In this document: positions 17,062 through 28,992 of the stretch, in pieces
Layout of the letters: every line of letters starts with the position of its first letter
Numbering within the stretch: position 1 is the first letter of the stretch
Source of the DNA: Hymenobacter cellulosivorans
GTDB taxonomy: Bacteria; Bacteroidota; Bacteroidia; Cytophagales; Hymenobacteraceae
DNA length: 64,000 nt
NCBI RefSeq assembly: GCF_022919135.1
Contig: NZ_CP095049.1
Location: 3,848,501 to 3,912,500 of the forward strand
Reading direction: 5' to 3'
Program-made: the position numbers and the translations under genes
Notes under the pieces: generated by a model
Told to the model about the DNA's origin: nothing
The model's database searches: none
The model's input: the letters and a program-made list of their open reading frames with translations, nothing else

Positions 17062-18408
17062 CTACTCTGGGCGCGGCTCCGGGTTTGCCCGGAGTATTTC
17101 CCAGAGCAGCACGGCTCCTGCCACGGCATATTCCGCAGCCACCAGGCTCAGGTTCTCGGTGTAGGCGCTGGTTTGGTAGGCCGCGTAGGACAGCGGAATC
17201 AGGGCCGACCATACCAGGGCAAACCGGTAACGGGTAAAACTGCTCAGGGCTACCAGCGTGGTAATGTACCAGGGATGAACCGTGGTGGCCAGGGCAAAAT
17301 ACAGCGTGAGCGTAAATAACAAGGTGCCTGGCAGCGTGGCCAGTGTAGGGCGCTTTTCCGTGGCGGCTAGTAGCAGGGCCCCGAGACCGGTAGCAAGGGC
17401 CAGGAAAGTACCCAGGCGGGCAATCTGGTTGTAGCCCGTGTGCCAGTAGCCCACAGCCCGCAGCAGGTAGTACAGGCTAGCATTAAACTCGAACTTGTGG
17501 AAGTACAGGTCGAGGCTGCGGCCCAGGTTGCGCAGCAAATCGGCGGATACGAAAGGTGCAAACAGCACCAGCAGAAACACCACCGTAAGGCCGGCGTAGC
17601 GCAAGAATTGTGCCCAGCCCAGGCGGCGCAGCAACAGGGGCAGGGCCAGCACCGGCAGCAGCTTGGTAGCAATGGCGGCGGCCAGAGCCGCCGCCGCCAT
17701 TGCCCGGCGGTTTTGGGCCAGCAGCCACAGCGCCGCCAGCACACCGCAGATTAGCAAAGCTTCGAAGTGCAGGTTGCCAGTCAACTCCACAATCACCAAG
17801 GGGTTGAGCAGGTAGGTCAGTGCCCGGCTATCAGGCAACCCGAAGCGCGGCAGCAGCCGGAGCAACAGCAGGGCCGTGCCCGCCTCGGCCATCAGCAGCA
17901 CCAGCCGCAGCACGAGGACAAATCCTTGCTCACGGGTTGGAAACAACTTGCTGGCCAACCCAAAGGCCGCTTGGCAAACGGGCGGATACACGGAGTAGTA
18001 ATGCGGCGAATTAAGTTGGGTGTAGAGCTGCCGGGCTGCTTGCTTGGACAAAGGCGGCAGAGGACTAACTGTGGAATCGGCGGCCGGGGCCATCCTGTCA
18101 GCGGGGCGCAGCCGGTAGGGGTTTTGGCCGGCCGCCACCAGGGCTCCATCCCAGCGGAAGCGGAAATAATCGTCGGACAGCGCCGGTAGAGCAGGCAGCC
18201 AGAGTAGACGCAGGATTAGAGCCAGACCCAGACCGTAGCGCAGGGGCAGGGGACGGCGCAAGAGCAGGGCATAGCCGCCGAAGGCCACGGTATACAGCGC
18301 CAGCAACAGCCCGAAATCCGACCGGGGAATGGCGTAGGCCAGCCCCAAGTAAGCTGTGGCGCTCAAAACCGCCGCCAGCCCGTGCGCGCCGGTTAGCCGT
18401 GGGTTCAC
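17062..18408 (-). CDS. GT-C type membrane mannosyl/glycosyltransferase
   Basis: 448 residues with 10-12 predicted membrane helices. The first periplasmic loop has ALSDDYFRFRWDGALVAAGQNPYRL, the Asp-Asp motif of polyprenyl-phosphate-dependent GT-C enzymes. Later TTVHPWYITTLVAL is also shared with bacterial mannosyltransferases. It should transfer a sugar from a polyprenyl carrier at the outer face of the inner membrane. Its start overlaps the stop of the upstream GT2 gene by 4 bases, and with the GT2 at 19927 it forms a three-gene unit: one enzyme could load the carrier and the others use it. Confidence 0.85.
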   Translation of the reverse strand: MNPRLTGAHGLAAVLSATAYLGLAYAIPRSDFGLLLALYTVAFGGYALLLRRPLPLRYGLGLALILRLLWLPALPALSDDYFRFRWDGALVAAGQNPYRLRPADRMAPAADSTVSPLPPLSKQAARQLYTQLNSPHYYSVYPPVCQAAFGLASKLFPTREQGFVLVLRLVLLMAEAGTALLLLRLLPRFGLPDSRALTYLLNPLVIVELTGNLHFEALLICGVLAALWLLAQNRRAMAAAALAAAIATKLLPVLALPLLLRRLGWAQFLRYAGLTVVFLLVLFAPFVSADLLRNLGRSLDLYFHKFEFNASLYYLLRAVGYWHTGYNQIARLGTFLALATGLGALLLAATEKRPTLATLPGTLLFTLTLYFALATTVHPWYITTLVALSSFTRYRFALVWSALIPLSYAAYQTSAYTENLSLVAAEYAVAGAVLLWEILRANPEPRPE

Positions 18409-19877
18409 GAGGTAGCGCGGTTATGCTGCAGGGAATAGTAGAAGATCAGGCCGAAGCCGACCGTGAGCAGGCCGTGAAAGGGCAGCAGCCCGTAGCTGCG
18501 GAAGTACAGGCCCAACCCCAACCCAAACAGGAAATACAGCGCCAGCAGGCCTTCCAGCATGGTCAGGCCGTCCAGGCTACCGGTGCGGTAGCGGCGGCCC
18601 ACCCAGGTGCCCTGCCGCTTGATGAGCCCCATCTTCGGCGTCCGGATGAAGGCCGAGGGGCGCCGGGCCAGGCCGGCCAGCACCGCCCGGGAATTGTGCA
18701 GTGATAAGCCCATCGTGACGGCCAGAAACAGCAGGAACCGCGGCACAAATTGCCCCAAGCGCCCCGCCGGGCTGCCCACTCGCCAAGCTGTGTAGAAGTA
18801 ATAGGTCAGCGGCAAAAATCCCAGAACACAAACCGAGGCCAGGCGGAAAACGGGCTGAAACCGGGGCTCATATTCCCGAATGTAGAGCAGGGGCACGCTG
18901 AGCACAGCCATCAGCAGAATGGCCACGAATACAGTGCTGTTGAGCAAATGAAACGCGGCGTGGAGCTTGGTGCTGGTGCTCTGGCCCGAGCGCAGCACCT
19001 GGCGCAGGTGCTTGCGGGCCGTTTCGGCGGCGCCCTTGGTCCAGCGGTGCTGCTGCGACTTGAGAGCGGGCAAGGCAGCCGGTAGCTCGGCCGGGGCCTG
19101 CACCCCGGGCAAATACACGAAGCGCCAACCCCGCAGCTGGGCCCGGTAGCTCAGGTCCAGGTCTTCGGTGAGCGTATCGGCGTGCCAGCCGCCGGCGTCC
19201 TCGATGCACTTCCGCCGCCATACGCCGCCGGTGCCGTTGAAGTTGATGAAGTGCCCGCCCAGGTTGCGGCCCACCTGCTCCACCAGGAAGTGGGCATTGA
19301 GCCCGAAAGCCTGTAGCTCGGTGAGCAGAGAATATTCCTCGTTGAGGTGAGTCCAGCGGGTTTGCACCACACCCACTTCGGGGCCGGTGAAATACGGTAC
19401 CGTGCGGCGCAGGAAGTCGGGCTCGGGCACGAAGTCGGCGTCGAAAATGGCAATGAGCTCCCCGTCGGTTTCCCGCAGCCCGTAGGCCAGGGCCCCGGCT
19501 TTATACCCTTCCCGGGTCGGCCGCCGCACCTGGTCGATGCGCAAGCCTTGGGCGCGGTAACGGGCCACGGCAGCGGCGGCCAGCGTGACGGTTTCGTCGG
19601 TGGAGTCGTCGAGCACCTGGATGTGAAGCCGGTCGAGGGGGTAGTCGAGCCGGGCAGCGGCCTCGATGATGCGCTCTACCACGTAGAGTTCGTTGTAGAT
19701 GGGCAGCTGCACCGTCACGCGGGGCCATTCGGCCGGAGCCGGAGCTGGAGGCTGCGCCGGCCGCGCGTAAGCACGCCGGGCCAGGCGGGTCAGGTGGAAC
19801 TGAGTCAGACTAAAGCCCAGAATAAAAATCAGGCAGAGGCCGTAGAGAACCAGAAGAACTATTTCCAGTCCTTGCAT
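18405..19877 (-). CDS. Processive-type GT2 membrane glycosyltransferase (cellulose synthase-like)
   Basis: 490 residues. One N-terminal membrane helix (LEIVLLVLYGLCLIFILGF), a cytoplasmic GT2 domain and four or five C-terminal helices. The catalytic signature is complete: VLDDSTDE, FDADFVPE, TEDLDLSYRAQ, and QQHRW (the Q-x-x-R-W of processive enzymes). It would make a beta-linked glycan or glycolipid from a nucleotide sugar. Overlaps the following GT-C gene by 4 bases, so co-translation is likely. No PilZ domain is seen. Confidence 0.9.
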   Translation of the reverse strand: MQGLEIVLLVLYGLCLIFILGFSLTQFHLTRLARRAYARPAQPPAPAPAEWPRVTVQLPIYNELYVVERIIEAAARLDYPLDRLHIQVLDDSTDETVTLAAAAVARYRAQGLRIDQVRRPTREGYKAGALAYGLRETDGELIAIFDADFVPEPDFLRRTVPYFTGPEVGVVQTRWTHLNEEYSLLTELQAFGLNAHFLVEQVGRNLGGHFINFNGTGGVWRRKCIEDAGGWHADTLTEDLDLSYRAQLRGWRFVYLPGVQAPAELPAALPALKSQQHRWTKGAAETARKHLRQVLRSGQSTSTKLHAAFHLLNSTVFVAILLMAVLSVPLLYIREYEPRFQPVFRLASVCVLGFLPLTYYFYTAWRVGSPAGRLGQFVPRFLLFLAVTMGLSLHNSRAVLAGLARRPSAFIRTPKMGLIKRQGTWVGRRYRTGSLDGLTMLEGLLALYFLFGLGLGLYFRSYGLLPFHGLLTVGFGLIFYYSLQHNRATS

Positions 19878-19926: not shown

Positions 19927-20637
19927 CTACAAATACTTGAAAATCGTCCACAAAATCTTGTAGCCGGCGCCCAAGGTACCTTTCACCGTGCCCGAAACCT
20001 TCGAAACCCCGATACGGCGGCGGTAGCGCACGGGCACTTCCTGGTTGCGCAGGCGCTGTTTGGCCGCCTTGAGCTGCATTTCCACCGTCCACCCATACGT
20101 GGTATCGGCCATGCCCAGATTGCGCAGGGCCTCGGCCCGGATGGCGCGGAAAGGACCCAGGTCGGTGAATCTTACCCCGTATAAGCTGCGCAGTAAGGTA
20201 GTCGCCAGCCAGTTGCCAAAGATTTGCTGGGGCAGCATCGAGCCGCTTTCCCGCTCGCCCAGGGCCCGGGAGCCAATAACCATATCGGCCTCGCCGCGCA
20301 GAATGGGGGCCAGCACGGCGGGCATGTCGGCGGGATAGTCGGAATGGTCGCCGTCGAGAAACACGATGATGTCGGCCTGCTCGGCGGCGGGCTTGCCGAA
20401 GCTGTAGGCCATGCCCGCCAGGCAGGCGTGGCCGTAGCCGGGCCGGTTTTCGCGCACCACCGTGGCCCCGGCCGCCCGCGCCACTTCCCCGGTGTTGTCG
20501 CGGGAATTGTTGTCCACCACGATTACCTCATCGACCAGCCCGGCCGGAATTTCAGCCAGCACCAGGGCAATGGACTGTTCTTCGTTGTAGGCCGGAATAA
20601 TGACGTGGATACGCGGCGTGGCGGGCAAATCGGGCAT
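19927..20637 (-). CDS. GT2 glycosyltransferase, dolichyl/polyprenyl-phosphate sugar synthase type
   Basis: 236 residues from ATG 20637 (MPDLPATPRIHVIIPAYNEE); an in-frame extension to 20715 has no protein character. Motifs: IPAYNEEQS, VVDNNSRDNTG, FLDGDHSDYP (DxD-type metal site), and GSRALGERESGSMLP. No C-terminal membrane anchor, though GAGYKILWTIFKYL may be amphipathic. Such enzymes load a lipid carrier with a single sugar. First gene of the 20637 to 17062 set, 49 bases before the processive GT2. Confidence 0.88.
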   Translation of the reverse strand: MPDLPATPRIHVIIPAYNEEQSIALVLAEIPAGLVDEVIVVDNNSRDNTGEVARAAGATVVRENRPGYGHACLAGMAYSFGKPAAEQADIIVFLDGDHSDYPADMPAVLAPILRGEADMVIGSRALGERESGSMLPQQIFGNWLATTLLRSLYGVRFTDLGPFRAIRAEALRNLGMADTTYGWTVEMQLKAAKQRLRNQEVPVRYRRRIGVSKVSGTVKGTLGAGYKILWTIFKYL

Positions 20638-20821
20638 GGATAGGGGTGGAGTCGGTGGGAGGGCCGGGCGAAAAAGGGAGCGGACCGGGCCCGACAGACC
20701 ACAAATCCTCCGCAAAGATGCACCTTCAGCGCGGTTATTCGTTTAACCCTAGTGCCGAGCTCAAACCTTCGGCGGGCCGGATAGGTTTCGGTCTATATTT
20801 CATTTTCCTTATTTCCCGCGC

Positions 20822-22923: not shown

Positions 22924-23988
22924 TTAGCGGCGGTTCGGAAACGAGACCTGGCAGACGCAGCGGAAGCCGATGGTCGGGGCCGGGCCGGTGTAGTGGCCCC
23001 GGGCTTTAAGCGTGCAGGCCTCCAGCGGGTCGTGGTAGCTGCCGCCTTTGGTCAGGCCCGGCTCCTGTACCAGCTCAGCCGCGTTGCCCAGCAGCTGGTA
23101 GGTGGCCAAATCGTTGGGCGGACCCTGCCAGACGTAGCCCGGAGTTCGCATCTGCAGAAAATAAGGCTCCGTCTGGCGATAATTAATCCAGCTGCGGGTG
23201 GGCTTGCTCCGGTTGTAGGTCTTAATATCTTCCTCTACCTGGGCCGCGCTTTTCGAAGTGCCCGAGCGCAGTTGCAGATACGTAGCTGCCTTCGGGTTCA
23301 CCTCCACCGGTAGATCAGTACACTTTGTGCCAAAGGGCTGCCCTCGTTCCACTAAGCCGGCGCTTTCCCACTCGGCCTCGGTGGGCAGGCGGTAGGTAAA
23401 TCGGATGTAGTTGGCGCTGAGCGTATCCGGCGCGGTAGGGCTGGAATTATAGGCTTGCATTACCACCTTGCTGCGCCATTTACAAAATGCCACCACCTGC
23501 TCGTAGCTGATGCCTACTACCGGAAATCGGTTGTAAAACGGATTAGTGTAGTAATCGGTAGTGGGCAGGGCCGAGGCCAGGGGCTGCATGCTGGCTGCCA
23601 CCGCGGGCGACGACCGGCTGAGCTGCTCCTGAAAGAATTTCCACTCCAGATTCGATACTTCGGCCTCGTCAATGCCCAAGCCATTTTCAGTAATGGGCAC
23701 AATGCCGGGCGGCTGAATCAGGCCGCTCTTTCTCCAGGCCGACCGTAGGGGAAAGCTAGGGGAGCCATACGGCTCGGTGCAGACCTTAGCGCTAGGCTTA
23801 AATCGGATAACGAGGTGGTCCTGCACGCCTACGGCCAGGTGCGTCAGGCGCGAGCCGGCGAAAGGCAGGGCCGTGGTAGCGCTGTAGCGCCCGGGCAGGA
23901 TGCTGGTCGGCGGCTGACTTGTATAACAGCCGGCCAAGGCGCAGGCCAACGCCAATAAGCCGCTCCGTAAGCAAAATTGAGTAGGCAT
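22924..23988 (-). CDS. SUMF1/formylglycine-generating-enzyme-like lipoprotein
   Basis: 354 residues from ATG 23988 (MPTQFCLRSGLLALACALAG); the frame continues 5' into the upstream gene without sense. Lipobox LAGC. The SUMF1 domain is seen in YPVVGISY-like FPVVGISYEQVVAFCKWRSK, YRLPTEAEWESAG, LLGNAAELVQEPGLTKGGSY and IGFRCVC. The two active cysteines of true FGE are not in the usual places, so it is probably a structural or binding domain as in the Gld lipoproteins. It is a tandem paralog of the gene at 24000 (11 bases between) and last in a five-gene same-strand set with redox genes. Confidence 0.87.
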   Translation of the reverse strand: MPTQFCLRSGLLALACALAGCYTSQPPTSILPGRYSATTALPFAGSRLTHLAVGVQDHLVIRFKPSAKVCTEPYGSPSFPLRSAWRKSGLIQPPGIVPITENGLGIDEAEVSNLEWKFFQEQLSRSSPAVAASMQPLASALPTTDYYTNPFYNRFPVVGISYEQVVAFCKWRSKVVMQAYNSSPTAPDTLSANYIRFTYRLPTEAEWESAGLVERGQPFGTKCTDLPVEVNPKAATYLQLRSGTSKSAAQVEEDIKTYNRSKPTRSWINYRQTEPYFLQMRTPGYVWQGPPNDLATYQLLGNAAELVQEPGLTKGGSYHDPLEACTLKARGHYTGPAPTIGFRCVCQVSFPNRR

Positions 23989-23999
23989 TGACAAGAAGA

Positions 24000-25199
24000 T
24001 TAGCGCTTCTGCGAGCTGGCCAGCGGGGCTTGGTTGGGAAACTCGATGTCGCACACGGCCCGGAAGCCGATGTGAGCCGCCGGGCCCTGGTAGCTGCCGC
24101 ACTCCTTGATGGCGCACTCCACGAGCCGGTCCTGGTAGCTGCCGCCCTTGGTCACGCCCTGTTCTTGCACCAGCTCGGCCACGTTGCCGGTCATGTGGTA
24201 GAGCCCCAGGCCGTTGACCGGCAAATCGTAGACGTAGCTGGGCGTGGAGGCCGCCAAAAAGTAAGGCGCTTCCCGGCGGCAGTTGAACATCACGATTTCG
24301 GAGCGTTGGCGGTTGAAGGCCAGAATGTCCTTGCGAATCTGGGCCGCCGAGTTGGGGCTGCCCGAGCGGTGCTGTAGGTATTCGGCCGCCTGCGGATTCA
24401 CCGTTACTTCCGCCGTCGATACCTCGTAGCCGTAGGGCAGCTGGGTGCCGTAGCGGGCCGCAAACTCCCATTCCGCCTCCGTAGGCAGCCGGTAGGTGAC
24501 GCGCACAAATTTGGGGTCCCGGGAGTTGCGGATGCTGCGGCCCTCGTTGAGCAGCCGGGTTACGGTGCGGCTGCGCCAGCGGCAGTATTCGAGCACCTGC
24601 TCGTAGCTGATGCCCACCACGGGGTAGAGGCGGTAAAAGGGGTTGGTGAAGTAGCCGCGCACGGGCTGCACCGTGGAGTCAGGCAGATACAGCCGGACTT
24701 CGGCCGCGGACTTGGTTGTGGACAGGCTGTGCAAAAACGTCTGCCATTCCACGTTGGGCACTTCTACCTCGTCCATCTGGAACCGGTCCCCAATCCAGAC
24801 CACGCCGGGCGGAAGTACGCCCTCGTCTTCGGCTTTCTGAATCTTGGGACTGGGCGGGGGCAGGGCCCGCAGGCGGGCCAGGGCCACGGTAGCCGTGTCG
24901 GCGGCAAAGCGCAAGCCTACCACCCGGGCATCGGAGAAGCCCTGGTAAGGCTGTAGCAGTTGAGCGTCGCCGGCCGGAGCTTCCTCGTCTTCGGCCCGCA
25001 CGATGCGCTGCACCTGCCGCTCATCCCAAAGCTGGAGCGGTACGCCGGTTTGGGCGCTGTAAGTGCCGGGTCGGGTGCTAGTGGGCGCTGTGCCACGCAG
25101 AGCCGTGGGAAATTGGTAGCGGATAAAGGCCGTTTGGCAGGCCCCAAGCCCGCCGAGCATACCTAGCAGCAGAAGCCGACTGCAACCGGAGCTTCGCAT
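24000..25199 (-). CDS. SUMF1/formylglycine-generating-enzyme-like lipoprotein (paralog)
   Basis: 399 residues. Lipobox LGAC after RLLLLGMLGG. The N-terminal 130 residues are a separate region also present in shorter form in the neighbour (RPGTYSAQTGVPLQLWDERQ against LPGRYSATTALPFAGSRL). SUMF1 part: MDEVEVPNVEWQTFLHSL, YPVVGISYEQVLEYCRWRS, YRLPTEAEWEFAARY, MTGNVAELVQEQGVTKGGSY, IGFRAVCDIEF. Only 5 bases separate it from the 4Fe-4S protein gene upstream, so it is almost surely cotranscribed. Exposed on the periplasmic side of a membrane; possible partner of the redox proteins (inference). Confidence 0.88.
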   Translation of the reverse strand: MRSSGCSRLLLLGMLGGLGACQTAFIRYQFPTALRGTAPTSTRPGTYSAQTGVPLQLWDERQVQRIVRAEDEEAPAGDAQLLQPYQGFSDARVVGLRFAADTATVALARLRALPPPSPKIQKAEDEGVLPPGVVWIGDRFQMDEVEVPNVEWQTFLHSLSTTKSAAEVRLYLPDSTVQPVRGYFTNPFYRLYPVVGISYEQVLEYCRWRSRTVTRLLNEGRSIRNSRDPKFVRVTYRLPTEAEWEFAARYGTQLPYGYEVSTAEVTVNPQAAEYLQHRSGSPNSAAQIRKDILAFNRQRSEIVMFNCRREAPYFLAASTPSYVYDLPVNGLGLYHMTGNVAELVQEQGVTKGGSYQDRLVECAIKECGSYQGPAAHIGFRAVCDIEFPNQAPLASSQKR

Positions 25200-25204
25200 A
25201 ACGA

Positions 25205-26590
25205 TTAAGAAAGTAGCCGCAGACTATCGGCGTGAATAAAGGAGGAGCCTTGGTAGCGGCCTTCCCGCGGCCCGTTTTCCAGGTTGAGCACGCCGCGGGG
25301 GCAGGCCGTGCTGCACATGCCGCAGCCCACGCAGGAAGCCCGAATGATGGGTTCTCCGCGCTGGGCGTACTGCTTCACGTCGATGCCCATCTCGCAGACG
25401 TTGGAGCAGTTGCCGCAGCTGATGCACTGGCCGCCGTTGGTGGTGATGCGGAAGCGGGAAAAGTGCTTTTGCAGCAAGCCCAGATAGGCCGCCATGGGGC
25501 AGCCAAAGCGGCACCACACCCGGTTGCCCAGAATCGGGTAGAAGCCCACGCCCACTACCCCCGAAAACACGGCTCCGATAACGAAGCCGTAGAACCGGTA
25601 AAGCCCGTCGGCCAAGGAGCCCAGGATGGCGCCGTGCAGCCAGTAGTTGAGCCACACCACGATGGTTACCAGAAGAATCAGGCCCAGAATCGGGTAAATC
25701 AGGCGCACTTCCCAGCGCCAGGCGGCCCGGCTCTTGTCGGAAAGCTGACGGTAGGGGTCCCCGGCGGTTTCGGCCAGGCCCCCGCAGCCGCACACCCAGG
25801 AGCAGTACCAGCGCTTGCCGTAGAAATAGGTAAGTACCGGCGTGGCCACAAACGACATAACCGCGCCCCAGACCACCATGAATACGCCCAGTGCCTGTCC
25901 GTCCCGAATCAGGTATTCAAAAGAGCTGGGAAACAGGTAGTCGTACTTCAGGGGCCAGAAATAAGTAAAATAGAACTCGGGCTGCTGAAAAAACTGCAGC
26001 ACACCGGGCAGCAAAAAAGCAAAGGCCAGCTGAAAAAACATGACCGATACGGTGCGCAGGCGCTGGTAGGGGGAGTGGCGGTATTTCCACAGAGCCCGCC
26101 CGCCCATGAGCAGAATGGCCAGGGTGTAAAACGTGCCGTAGAGAAACCACTGGTCGGCGGGGCGCTGCCGCAGCAGCTGGCTGAACGGGTCGAGGGTATG
26201 CACCAAGCCGTTGAGCAGGCCAAAATTGCCCTTGTCGTCGGGGGAGCTGTACCAATAGAGCAGCACGTAGAAGCCCGTCAGGACCACGGCCGTAACCCAG
26301 GCCACGGCCCCGCGGCTGGTGCTGCTGCGCAGCCAGAGGTTGTCGTGTTGCAGGCCGGCGGGCTGGCGGCCATACTTAAGCCAGGCCCATACCAACGTAC
26401 CGCCGCTTATCAGGCCCAAACCCGCGTACAGGCTAAGCTGGGCCCGGTAGGCATCCGCAGCGGCGGCAGCCACGAGCAGGGCCAGAAAGCCCAGGCCAAT
26501 GACGGTGAGCGTGGTTTTCTCGGGGGGGGAAACGGTGGGTAAGGGCGGCTGGGCCAGCGCCAGGCTAGCGGCCGCAGCAGAGGAAGGCAT
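25205..26590 (-). CDS. NapH/NosR/CcoG-like membrane protein with 4Fe-4S clusters
   Basis: 461 residues from ATG 26590 (MPSSAAAASLALAQPPLP). Six or seven membrane helices. Between helices are FYGKRWYCSWVCGCGG and NRVWCRFGCPMAAYLG, the Cys-rich CxxxC(P) motifs of NapH/NosR proteins. The C-terminus has two ferredoxin-type clusters: Cys389, 392, 395, 399 (CISCGNCSNVC) and Cys420, 423, 426, 430 (CVGCGMCSTAC). Relatives pass electrons across the inner membrane to periplasmic reductases. No nap, nos or cco gene is in the window; instead the partners appear to be a soluble FAD enzyme and two SUMF1 lipoproteins. Confidence 0.9.
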   Translation of the reverse strand: MPSSAAAASLALAQPPLPTVSPPEKTTLTVIGLGFLALLVAAAAADAYRAQLSLYAGLGLISGGTLVWAWLKYGRQPAGLQHDNLWLRSSTSRGAVAWVTAVVLTGFYVLLYWYSSPDDKGNFGLLNGLVHTLDPFSQLLRQRPADQWFLYGTFYTLAILLMGGRALWKYRHSPYQRLRTVSVMFFQLAFAFLLPGVLQFFQQPEFYFTYFWPLKYDYLFPSSFEYLIRDGQALGVFMVVWGAVMSFVATPVLTYFYGKRWYCSWVCGCGGLAETAGDPYRQLSDKSRAAWRWEVRLIYPILGLILLVTIVVWLNYWLHGAILGSLADGLYRFYGFVIGAVFSGVVGVGFYPILGNRVWCRFGCPMAAYLGLLQKHFSRFRITTNGGQCISCGNCSNVCEMGIDVKQYAQRGEPIIRASCVGCGMCSTACPRGVLNLENGPREGRYQGSSFIHADSLRLLS

Positions 26591-26688
26591 CGGAGAGAAG
26601 CGGTGAAGGGGGCAGCGGAGAGAGGTAGTTTGGCAAGCGGAGCAGTAAGATAAGCTATTGGCCGCAACCAAGCATGCGGCCCGGCCAC

Positions 26689-26916
26689 TTAATGGTGGTG
26701 GTGATGCCCTTCACTAGGCTTACCAAACAAGTTGAGCAGGGACCCTACTACGTACAGTCCCGCCCAGCACGCGTACAGCCAGGTGTAGCCCTCGGGCACA
26801 CGATGCACGAAGTAGTGCAGGATCAGGTGGGCAGCCCCGCTCATAATCAGGCCGGTAACGGCAATAAACTGGTAGCTGTTCAGGGCGCTGGGCCGGTAGA
26901 GCTTGGTGAAATCCAT
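26689..26916 (-). CDS. Small two-helix membrane protein with His-rich C-terminus
   Basis: 75 residues from ATG 26916 (MDFTKLYRPSALNSYQFIAV). Two membrane helices (about 15-35 and 47-64). His residues in AAHLILHYFVHRV within and after helix 1 and a C-terminal tail GKPSEGHHHHH could bind heme or metal. Not recognised as a named family. It lies between the FAD oxidoreductase and the 4Fe-4S membrane protein on the same strand, so it is a candidate redox-complex subunit. Confidence 0.75.
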   Translation of the reverse strand: MDFTKLYRPSALNSYQFIAVTGLIMSGAAHLILHYFVHRVPEGYTWLYACWAGLYVVGSLLNLFGKPSEGHHHHH

Positions 26917-27047
26917 GGGAAGCAAAAGGGGGTGAAGTAGCTACAAGCCCGTTCCGGGCGGAATGATTCGGGCGCGGCAGCAGAAAGTTAGCGGCTCTGC
27001 TGGGGAAAGTAGGGCGTCGCCAGCAAACCGACAGGGCCTTGTTCAGC

Positions 27048-28379
27048 TCAGAACCGGGAAAACAGCCCTTTGCGGCGCTGCAATACCGTGGCGTGCTGGG
27101 GAAACTGGGCATTGAACTGCCGGATCATGTCGGGCTCGTGCTGGCGGTAAAACTCTGGGTCGAAGTTGGCCGCGCCCAGCTGGGTCATTACCTCCCGAAT
27201 GGGTGTTTGGGCGCTGATCCACCGGGCACACACCTCGTGGCGCAGCCGCAAGCCCAGGGCGTTGAAGCCCGTCACGGCGAAGCCCGGCTCACTACTGAAG
27301 TTGATGCGCAATGCCAGCCGGCCGCTAGGGTGCTCCCAATAAAAGGAGTCGATGCCGGCTTCGGGTCGGGCGGGCACGCGGCCGTAGGTCTGGTATTCAA
27401 GGGCAAAGAACTTGGCCGAGTTAAACCACACCCCGCGCTGGTAGGTTGTGGGCTGCCCGCAGATGGAATGGGCCACGGTTTCGCCCTGCATGCGCCCGGT
27501 GTACCAGAGCTGCTCGATAGGCACCTCATCCGGACCCGGCTGCCGGTGCTGGGCACAGTCGCCGGCGGCATACACGTTCGGCACGCTGGTTTGCAGCTGG
27601 GCATCCACCAGAATACCCCGGTCGGTTTCCACGGCCGTGCCTTGCACCAGGCTCAGGTTGGGTGTTACGCCGGTGGCCAGGCCCACCCACTGGCAGGGCA
27701 GTTCCTCGCCAGCCGTGGTGCGCACGGCCCGCACCCGGCCCTGGTTGTCGCCCAGAATTTCCGCCAGCTCGGTCTGGTAGCGCACGGCCACGTGGTGTTC
27801 GGCCAACTGCTGATCCACGAGCCGGGCTTCCGGGGCAGGCAGCACCGAGCCCCAGTAATGCGCGTCGCGCACCAGTAGTGTGGTTTCGATGCCGCGCGAG
27901 TGCAGCATTTCGGCCAGCTCCACCCCAATCAGACCGCCGCCCACCACCACGGCCTGCCCGATGCCGTGGGTATCGCGCTCCATGCGGGCCAGGTCGGGCA
28001 GACCGTAGAGGCCCTGCACGCCGCCCAGCTCCTGGCCCGGCCAATCGGCCCGACGGCTCACCGAGCCGGTAGCTAGCAGCAGCTTGTCGTAGCCCAGCTG
28101 CCGGCCGTCGTGGAGGGTCACGGTTTGGCTTTCAGTATCGAGGCCGGTAGCGGTGGCCTCAACCAGCTCCAGGCGGTTTTCAGCCCAAAACCAGTCTTCG
28201 TAAGGCTTGATGTCCTGGTAGCGCAGGTGGCCCAGGTACACGTACATCAGCGCCGTGCGGGAATAGTGGTGGGCGCTTTCCCCCGACACCAGCGTAATCT
28301 GGGCCGCGGGCTGCAGACGGCGTACCGTCAGGGCCGCCGTGACGCCCGTTATGCCATTACCAATAATGAGGAGGCGCAT
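27048..28379 (-). CDS. FAD-dependent NAD(P)H oxidoreductase (pyridine nucleotide-disulfide family)
   Basis: 443 residues from ATG 28379 (MRLLIIGNGITGVTAALTVR). FAD-binding GNGITG at residues 7-12, NAD(P)-binding VVVGGGLIGVELAEML mid-protein, and the second FAD motif NVYAAGDCAQH. No redox-active disulfide CxxxxC is seen, so it resembles NAD(P)H:acceptor reductases such as nitrite reductase large subunit N-termini or rubredoxin reductases. A C-terminal extension of about 120 residues (from QLWYTGRMQGE) carries WFNSAKFFALEYQTYG. First gene of the same-strand redox set; 131 bases before the small membrane protein. Confidence 0.88.
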   Translation of the reverse strand: MRLLIIGNGITGVTAALTVRRLQPAAQITLVSGESAHHYSRTALMYVYLGHLRYQDIKPYEDWFWAENRLELVEATATGLDTESQTVTLHDGRQLGYDKLLLATGSVSRRADWPGQELGGVQGLYGLPDLARMERDTHGIGQAVVVGGGLIGVELAEMLHSRGIETTLLVRDAHYWGSVLPAPEARLVDQQLAEHHVAVRYQTELAEILGDNQGRVRAVRTTAGEELPCQWVGLATGVTPNLSLVQGTAVETDRGILVDAQLQTSVPNVYAAGDCAQHRQPGPDEVPIEQLWYTGRMQGETVAHSICGQPTTYQRGVWFNSAKFFALEYQTYGRVPARPEAGIDSFYWEHPSGRLALRINFSSEPGFAVTGFNALGLRLRHEVCARWISAQTPIREVMTQLGAANFDPEFYRQHEPDMIRQFNAQFPQHATVLQRRKGLFSRF

Positions 28380-28614
28380 ACGAAATAAGAAAAGAGGAGC
28401 CAGCCGGCGCCGACCGGTACTCAAATGTAGGCGGCTCAGTGCAAAATGCCGCTACGGGCGGTGGTTCGGGTAGAAGCTCTCCGTCTTTGTCAGCCCTTTA
28501 GCTGGGTCTGGGTCTGGCTTGACTCAGAACTCCGGCCAGCTGGCCCCAACCTCCCCGCCGCCAGTGCGTAAGCTAGTAGCAAATCCCACTATCATCACCA
28601 AAGCACCTACCCAC

Positions 28615-28992
28615 ATGGCTGTCGATAACGAAAACGAAGAAATCACCAAGACCCCCGGCACCAGCAAGAACGAGGGCCTGGAAAAAGAGCGGGAATACAA
28701 AGAAGGCGAAAGCAACGGCAAAGCCTCCGATGACCCCTCTGCTCACCGCAACATGGGCGCCAATGGCTACACCCAGCGCAGCGACCAGAAAGACCAACTT
28801 GAAAACCTGCACATCGGCGGCGACGACCTGACGCCCTACGGGGCCAACAACCATGCTACCCCAGGCGAACAGTCCCAAGGACCGGGCTTTGAGTCGGAAG
28901 GCAGCTACGAAAAGGATATGGACATCCGCACCCGTGAGCAGCAATTTGGCGAGAAAGCGCCGAGCGGCCCGCCCAAAACGCCCCGCGACTAG
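28615..28992 (+). CDS. Hydrophilic, probably disordered hypothetical protein
   Basis: 125 residues from ATG 28615 (MAVDNENEEITKTPGTSKNE); the frame is open upstream but that part overlaps a spacer. Rich in Glu, Lys, Gly, Asn and Ser with almost no hydrophobic residues (EREYKEGESNGKASDDPSAH). Such proteins in this clade are often stress-related, but no family is recognised. A strong terminator follows 25 bases downstream, which supports expression. Confidence 0.65.
   Translation: MAVDNENEEITKTPGTSKNEGLEKEREYKEGESNGKASDDPSAHRNMGANGYTQRSDQKDQLENLHIGGDDLTPYGANNHATPGEQSQGPGFESEGSYEKDMDIRTREQQFGEKAPSGPPKTPRD

Follow-up and report, generated by a model that had tools for sequence, protein, structure and literature searches.

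A flavoprotein and a 4Fe-4S membrane protein encoded as a conserved gene pair, often beside arsenosugar genes, in Hymenobacter and other Bacteroidota

Introduction

Five adjoining genes in a 64,000-nucleotide stretch of the Hymenobacter cellulosivorans genome, referred to here as the window, raise the question of which of them belong together and what process they serve. They encode an NAD(P)H-type flavoprotein (here FAD), a small membrane protein, a 4Fe-4S membrane protein (FES) and two lipoproteins with an FGE-sulfatase domain (SUMF1-a and SUMF1-b). A preliminary description had treated them as a single redox set that could lead electrons from NAD(P)H through the membrane to the surface lipoproteins. 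The order of the genes, their position on the minus strand and the gaps of 131, 98, 5 and 11 bases between them are confirmed by the coordinates of the open reading frames (ORFs), and the nitrate, nitrous-oxide and oxidase-maturation genes said to be missing nearby are absent from the annotated ORFs, no whole-window scan having been aimed at them. Our conclusion is a narrower one: FAD and FES are a true, conserved two-gene unit that is often found beside arsenosugar genes, and the other three genes look like local neighbours. We read the pair as an NAD(P)H-flavin-polyferredoxin module recruited to arsenosugar or glycolipid synthesis, for which a probable direction of electron flow and candidate acceptors are proposed below.

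FAD and FES as a two-gene unit

In an order sample of 146 genomes, FAD was counted at E 1e-60 or better and FES matches weaker than E 1e-50 (in genomes G014, G018, G060 and G144) were excluded. FES was present in 40 genomes and FAD in 40, with both in 39, and the two one-sided genomes, G134 and G041, are fragmented assemblies. FAD lies directly upstream of FES in 79 of the best 80 loci of a genome-contig scan, the exception being locus L046 with about 2 kb between the genes, and in 29 of the 39 loci from the order sample; these two sets of loci underlie all the 80- and 39-locus counts that follow. Genomes in which the two genes are unlinked still possess both, on different contigs in G010, G042, G092 and G143 and 54 kb apart in G104.

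Five loci (L219-L223, families f34 and f52) carry FES as the C-terminal part of a frame of 826-830 aa. The N-terminal part of this frame is a YpdA/thioredoxin-reductase-like flavin domain, another kind of flavin reductase than FAD, as judged from hidden Markov model (HMM) scans on L219 alone, which L220-L223 match by tblastn; none of the three fusions checked (L219, L220 and L221) has a CxxC in its flavin part. Fusion of a flavin domain to FES points to direct electron transfer between the two. In L219 and L220 the fusion heads an operon that also contains TIGR04283, TIGR04282, DUF547, TIGR04169, ArsS and a GT2 gene. Of the route from NAD(P)H to the cell surface, co-inheritance and fusion bear out the first stretch, in which an NAD(P)H-type flavoprotein connects with a 4Fe-4S protein of the membrane. 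The comparison lends no support to the five genes as a set or to the lipoproteins as the end of the route.

FAD has the Pyr_redox_2 fold in common with ferredoxin and rubredoxin reductases, NirB and PadH, and it has matches in PDB to ferredoxin and putidaredoxin reductases. Its nearest named families are PadH (155 bits), NirB (149 bits) and ferredoxin-type reductases. It falls under every cut-off among the matches listed (25 of 64), is far under those of PadH and NirB (475 and 578), and differs from all these flavoproteins in having a polytopic membrane protein as its partner.

FES is polytopic with a double ferredoxin domain at its C-terminus (Pfam), and an AlphaFold2 model gives it eight long helices ahead of the ferredoxin part (mean predicted local distance difference test score 70.8). 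Over 61 homologues 13 cysteines are invariant, namely C263, C267, C269, C360, C364 and eight in the ferredoxin part; they make up the motifs CX3CGC (C263-x3-C267-G-C269) and CX3CP (C360-x3-C364-P) and two 4Fe-4S motifs. Nothing points to a conserved haem ligand, since no histidine is invariant over these homologues, the best being H172 in 44 of 61. Loop charges, together with related proteins treated in the sections of PMC5928378 available to us, suggest that the cysteine motifs and the ferredoxin domain lie on the cytoplasmic side. As far as the same sections describe proteins of the NapH/NosR type, FES resembles them in its several helices, its CX3CP motif and its C-terminal double 4Fe-4S domain, and is unlike them in having a flavoprotein partner. 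It scores 68.3 bits against the NapH/MauN model TIGR02163 (cut-off 213), and whereas NapH/MauN proteins have two CX3CP motifs, the first motif of FES is CX3CGC and the second CX3CP. The FMN (flavin mononucleotide)-binding domain that precedes the membrane part of NosR was not found in FES among Pfam matches to E 0.01. Nor does FES group with CcoG/FixG/RdxA, which we take to be defined by the Fer4_18 and FixG C-terminal domains: it reaches 18.4 bits against Fer4_18 (cut-off 27) and the FixG C-terminal domain has no match.

Longer relatives of FES, of about 590-600 aa against 461 aa in the window, occur in L135, L140-L142, L145, L146, L148 and L150, and in L145 the additional residues form an N-terminal stretch without a Pfam match. 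Selenocysteine in FES was considered for genomes G243 and G247, for each of which one in-frame TGA was listed, and was dropped: the alignments show an open FES frame (L214, L215), and in L215 one of them had overrun the natural stop.

Linkage to the arsenosugar pathway

Recurrent neighbours of the pair are ArsS (TIGR04167), TIGR04169, TIGR04282, TIGR04283, the rhodanese-domain protein NF045521, DUF547, purine nucleoside phosphorylase and three glycosyltransferase-like genes (pGT2, cGT and PMTl). They were identified by neighbour clustering, for which the gene calls were mechanical ORF picks, and by tblastn reference searches, with HMM checks in L110, L087 and L034. With ArsS, TIGR04169, TIGR04282, TIGR04283 and rhodanese taken as arsenosugar markers, one or more of them lie within 10.5 kb of FES in 24 of the best 80 loci and 14 of the 39 order loci, and ArsS itself in 10 and 2, respectively. 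One or more of the three glycosyltransferase-like genes are present over the same distance in 38 of the best 80 loci and 17 of the 39 order loci; the separate counts near FES are 37 and 17 for pGT2, 33 and 17 for cGT, and 28 and 16 for PMTl.

FES and ArsS occur together in 31 of the 146 order genomes (FES 40, ArsS 35; Fisher p 2e-19) and in 46 of 296 phylum genomes (66 and 121; p 9e-8), where FES was counted at E 1e-40 and diverged or fused forms may be missed. By genus the shared counts are 15 of 79 in the order (21 and 18; p 6e-9) and 33 of 139 in the phylum (43 and 49; p 1e-11). Outside the window's own family, f1, the order sample has 18 shared genomes (27 and 22; p 4e-12). Where FES and ArsS are on the same contig, 22 of 33 pairs are within 25 kb of each other, in 21 genomes from six families (f1, f25, f42, f34, f46 and f17); about 0.8 such pairs would be expected by chance among the 72 genomes with both, assuming genomes of 4.3 Mb. 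The 33 pairs and the genome lists were compiled by hand. In genome G105 FES, FAD and ArsS are each present twice, paired within 13-16 kb, and compact AhpD-ArsS-TIGR04282-FAD-FES runs are present in L214-L217, that of L217 with a gap between ArsS and TIGR04282. Linkage in L214-L233 is not a sample, because these loci were picked mostly for a nearby ArsS or an odd form.

A tree was built from the C-terminal 420 residues of FES for 133 of 139 loci, those with rows of 400-860 aa. The arsenosugar-marker label is carried by 47 of these 133 rows, some of which were picked for their linkage, and has switched on the tree at least 15-19 times, so that linkage has been gained or lost repeatedly. FES is an accessory of the arsenosugar pathway and not a constant part of it.

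Proposed function and alternatives

Available portions of PMC12159101 describe ArsS as a radical-SAM (S-adenosylmethionine) enzyme that adenosylates arsenic in arsenosugar synthesis. As a radical-SAM enzyme it needs an electron donor. In the open-licence literature searched, no description was found of the FAD-FES pair or of the electron source of ArsS, which is weak evidence of absence. Our preferred reading, held with confidence a little short of even, is that FAD and FES form one inner-membrane electron-transfer unit, tied repeatedly in Bacteroidota to the ArsS pathway and to a glycosyltransferase arm, and most likely supplying electrons to one step of that pathway. Soluble FAD would take hydride from NAD(P)H and pass electrons to the two [4Fe-4S] clusters of FES, from which they would reach, at the membrane, the cysteines of the conserved CX3CGC and CX3CP motifs. 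There FES could serve an inner-membrane step of the arsenosugar pathway, the candidate acceptors being the radical-SAM cluster of ArsS, an arsenic(V) or thiol intermediate, a quinone-coupled membrane step and a glycosyltransferase-linked lipid step. A bolder form of the proposal, which we put forward speculatively and think unlikely, would make the pair an NAD(P)H-flavin-polyferredoxin reductase dedicated to the radical-SAM arsenosugar pathway and coupled to a polyprenyl-phosphate glycosyltransferase arm, the product being an arsenic-containing membrane glycolipid, with two kinds of flavin reductase recruited to one membrane protein.

Several observations weigh against the supply of electrons to arsenosugar synthesis. 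With two 4Fe-4S clusters at the usual potential of NADPH, the reduction of a radical-SAM cluster would be difficult, and the Fisher p values overstate independence because the genomes are related. In the H. cellulosivorans genome itself ArsS is about 740 kb from the window FES. ArsS is present without FES (E 1e-40) in 75 of 121 phylum genomes and in 4 order genomes, FES without ArsS in 20 of 66 phylum genomes and in 9 order genomes, and FES was not found in any of 15 fetched ArsS loci of FES-negative genomes (L234-L248, chosen as such; L249, from the FES-positive genome G043, is outside this count). In the FES tree 67 of 133 rows have no arsenosugar or glycosyltransferase marker within 10.5 kb, and the pairs without markers include those of Pontibacter, Rhodothermota, Dadabacteria and Gemmatimonadota. 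A pair that stands alone in so many lineages, and in genomes without ArsS, would also suit a general membrane NAD(P)H dehydrogenase that supplies the quinone pool or keeps NAD(P)H in balance, its proximity to arsenosugar genes being due to co-transfer or to a shared redox need. This account gains from an NAD kinase-like gene that adjoins FAD, divergently, in 8 of the 58 loci that lack both arsenosugar and glycosyltransferase markers (mechanical ORF picks), a hint at NADP(H), and from the portrayal of NapH as quinol-oxidising in the accessible part of PMC5928378. We consider it possible but on the whole improbable in view of the FES-ArsS linkage within 25 kb in six families, the tight operons of L214-L217 and L219-L220, and Hymenobacter genome G144, which has lost FES and FAD as well as ArsS.

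The greater frequency of glycosyltransferase-like genes than of arsenosugar markers near FES could alternatively mean that FAD-FES serves the production, by pGT2, cGT and PMTl, of a glycolipid or glycan free of arsenic, ArsS sharing only the glycosyltransferases or the neighbourhood. A single rhodanese-DUF547-FAD-FES-cGT-pGT2-PMTl run without ArsS above cut-off, in genomes G033 (L129) and G047 (L127), would fit such a role, whereas in L214-L217 FAD-FES accompanies AhpD, ArsS and TIGR04282 with no such glycosyltransferase within the fetched stretch, and we judge this explanation quite unlikely. The route of the preliminary description, in which electrons from NAD(P)H would pass by way of FAD, the small protein and FES and end at both SUMF1 lipoproteins, appears very improbable. 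The gaps of 5 and 11 bases suggest one transcript for FES, SUMF1-a and SUMF1-b, and a lipoprotein reductant is conceivable given that the related GldK forms disulfides with client proteins (PMC12635249, in part). Against this, lipoprotein genes are within 10.5 kb of FES in just 8 of the best 80 loci and 1 of the 39 order loci, the small protein is near FES in 27 of the best 80, and outside family f1 the 23 genomes with the small protein and the 27 with FES share none, so that the five genes do not stay together in other genomes and a conserved five-gene unit is rejected. PorK, GldK and GldJ are, moreover, presented in the relevant part of PMC12421860 as structural FGE folds without active-site cysteines.

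If electron supply to arsenosugar synthesis is correct, a function-linked name would become available for proteins that currently go by 4Fe-4S binding protein or NapH (among 8000 candidates scored). With two co-inherited genes as the candidate, and with operons and a fusion that occur naturally, the question of the ArsS electron source becomes testable.

The small protein and the SUMF1 lipoproteins

The small protein, which has no match in Pfam, NCBIfam or PHROGs, is present in 37 of 146 order genomes and, in G144, without FES or FAD. In Hymenobacter relatives that have FAD-FES elsewhere it keeps its own neighbours, for example an alpha/beta hydrolase (L161, L166), as seen in the 8 of 30 loci that were inspected by eye. 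We judge it to be a bystander that is not needed by the unit. Its C-terminus is rich in histidine, and it may bind metal. This terminus is kept in distant relatives as DDHHHH and DDHHHHH (L166:1498-1719, L168:1492-1695), which adjoin housekeeping-like genes.

SUMF1-a and SUMF1-b each have a lipobox with Cys21 (LGAC and LAGC, respectively) and share this feature and the FGE-sulfatase domain with GldK, PorK and GldJ of gliding and the type IX secretion system; SUMF1-a also matches PorK in PDB (9e-14). The GldK model gives them 84 and 60 bits against a cut-off of 350, and neither reaches the curated cut-offs of the GldK/GldJ equivalogs (350, 383 and 458). Each has one cysteine after a GGS motif (GGSYQDRLVEC and GGSYHDPLEAC), at what we take to be the place of the second active-site cysteine of FGE (formylglycine-generating enzyme), and none at the presumed first place, these positions being assigned without an FGE alignment. 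A close full-length relative of SUMF1-a (79%) is present in 1 other of the 146 order genomes; at a weaker level 139 of the 146 have matches, counted as a group with GldK/GldJ-like proteins among them. We judge both lipoproteins to be lineage-specific neighbours that accompany the pair in few Hymenobacter and are not needed by the unit.

The wider locus

Between 16 and 21 kb of the window, 4.5-9 kb from FES, lie TIGR04169, rhodanese, pGT2, cGT and PMTl (Table 1). The window thus holds TIGR04169 and NF045521 in common with ArsS arsenosugar loci and differs from them in that ArsS is not in the same locus. In the same genome ArsS, TIGR04282 and TIGR04283, all above cut-off, are together with a DUF547-like gene at C1:3.13 Mb, as is an arsenite-methyltransferase-like gene (186 bits, below its cut-off of 263). 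PMTl is taken, by resemblance, as a putative glycosyltransferase-C-like gene, and could possibly represent an unnamed glycosyltransferase family.

Table 1. Location of the window genes and of comparison features in other loci
Feature	Position	Strand	Match or note
FAD, NAD(P)H-type flavoprotein, 443 aa	27048..28379	minus	Pyr_redox_2 1.3e-48 (Pfam)
Small membrane protein, 75 aa, ends HHHHH	26689..26916	minus	no family match
FES, 4Fe-4S membrane protein, 461 aa	25205..26590	minus	Fer4_5 + Fer4_9 (Pfam)
SUMF1-a, GldK/GldJ-like lipoprotein, 399 aa	24000..25199	minus	FGE-sulfatase 3.6e-24
SUMF1-b, second GldK-like lipoprotein, 354 aa	22924..23988	minus	FGE-sulfatase 4.7e-16; in-frame ATG at 23988
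pGT2, GT2 like polyprenyl-phosphate sugar synthases	19927..20715	minus	AglJ model 126 bits of 325, TIGR04283 42 of 182
cGT, cellulose-synthase-like GT2	18405..19877	minus	Glyco_tranf_2_3 2.2e-33
PMTl, polytopic protein, 448 aa	17062..18408	minus	nine hydrophobic segments; no Pfam or NCBIfam match
Rhodanese-domain protein NF045521, 171 aa	16535..17050	plus	176.5 bits, cut-off 145
AhpD-like arsenosugar-associated peroxidase-like protein TIGR04169, 112 aa	16097..16435	plus	198 bits, cut-off 120
Fused flavin-FES frame	L219:6988-9468		
Fused flavin-FES frame	L220:7528-10008		
Fused flavin-FES frame	L221:6662-9148		
Fused flavin-FES frames	L222, L223		
NAD kinase-like gene beside FAD	L075, L079, L081, L082, L095, L100, L108, L109		Pfam-confirmed in L079, L082

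Promoter and terminator scans gave numbers at chance level. One TANNTTTG, which we take to be the Bacteroidota -7 motif, is at 28429 upstream of FAD and is weak. The ArsS locus of the same genome (L114:594-7905) adjoins genes that, by their sequence, resemble those of heavy-metal efflux, namely a 1091-aa RND-type pump and partners. Upstream of FAD, on the plus strand of the window (28519-28992), is a hydrophilic ORF of 157 aa without a Pfam or NCBIfam match, and neighbour clustering places its relatives at the same position in other Hymenobacter loci.

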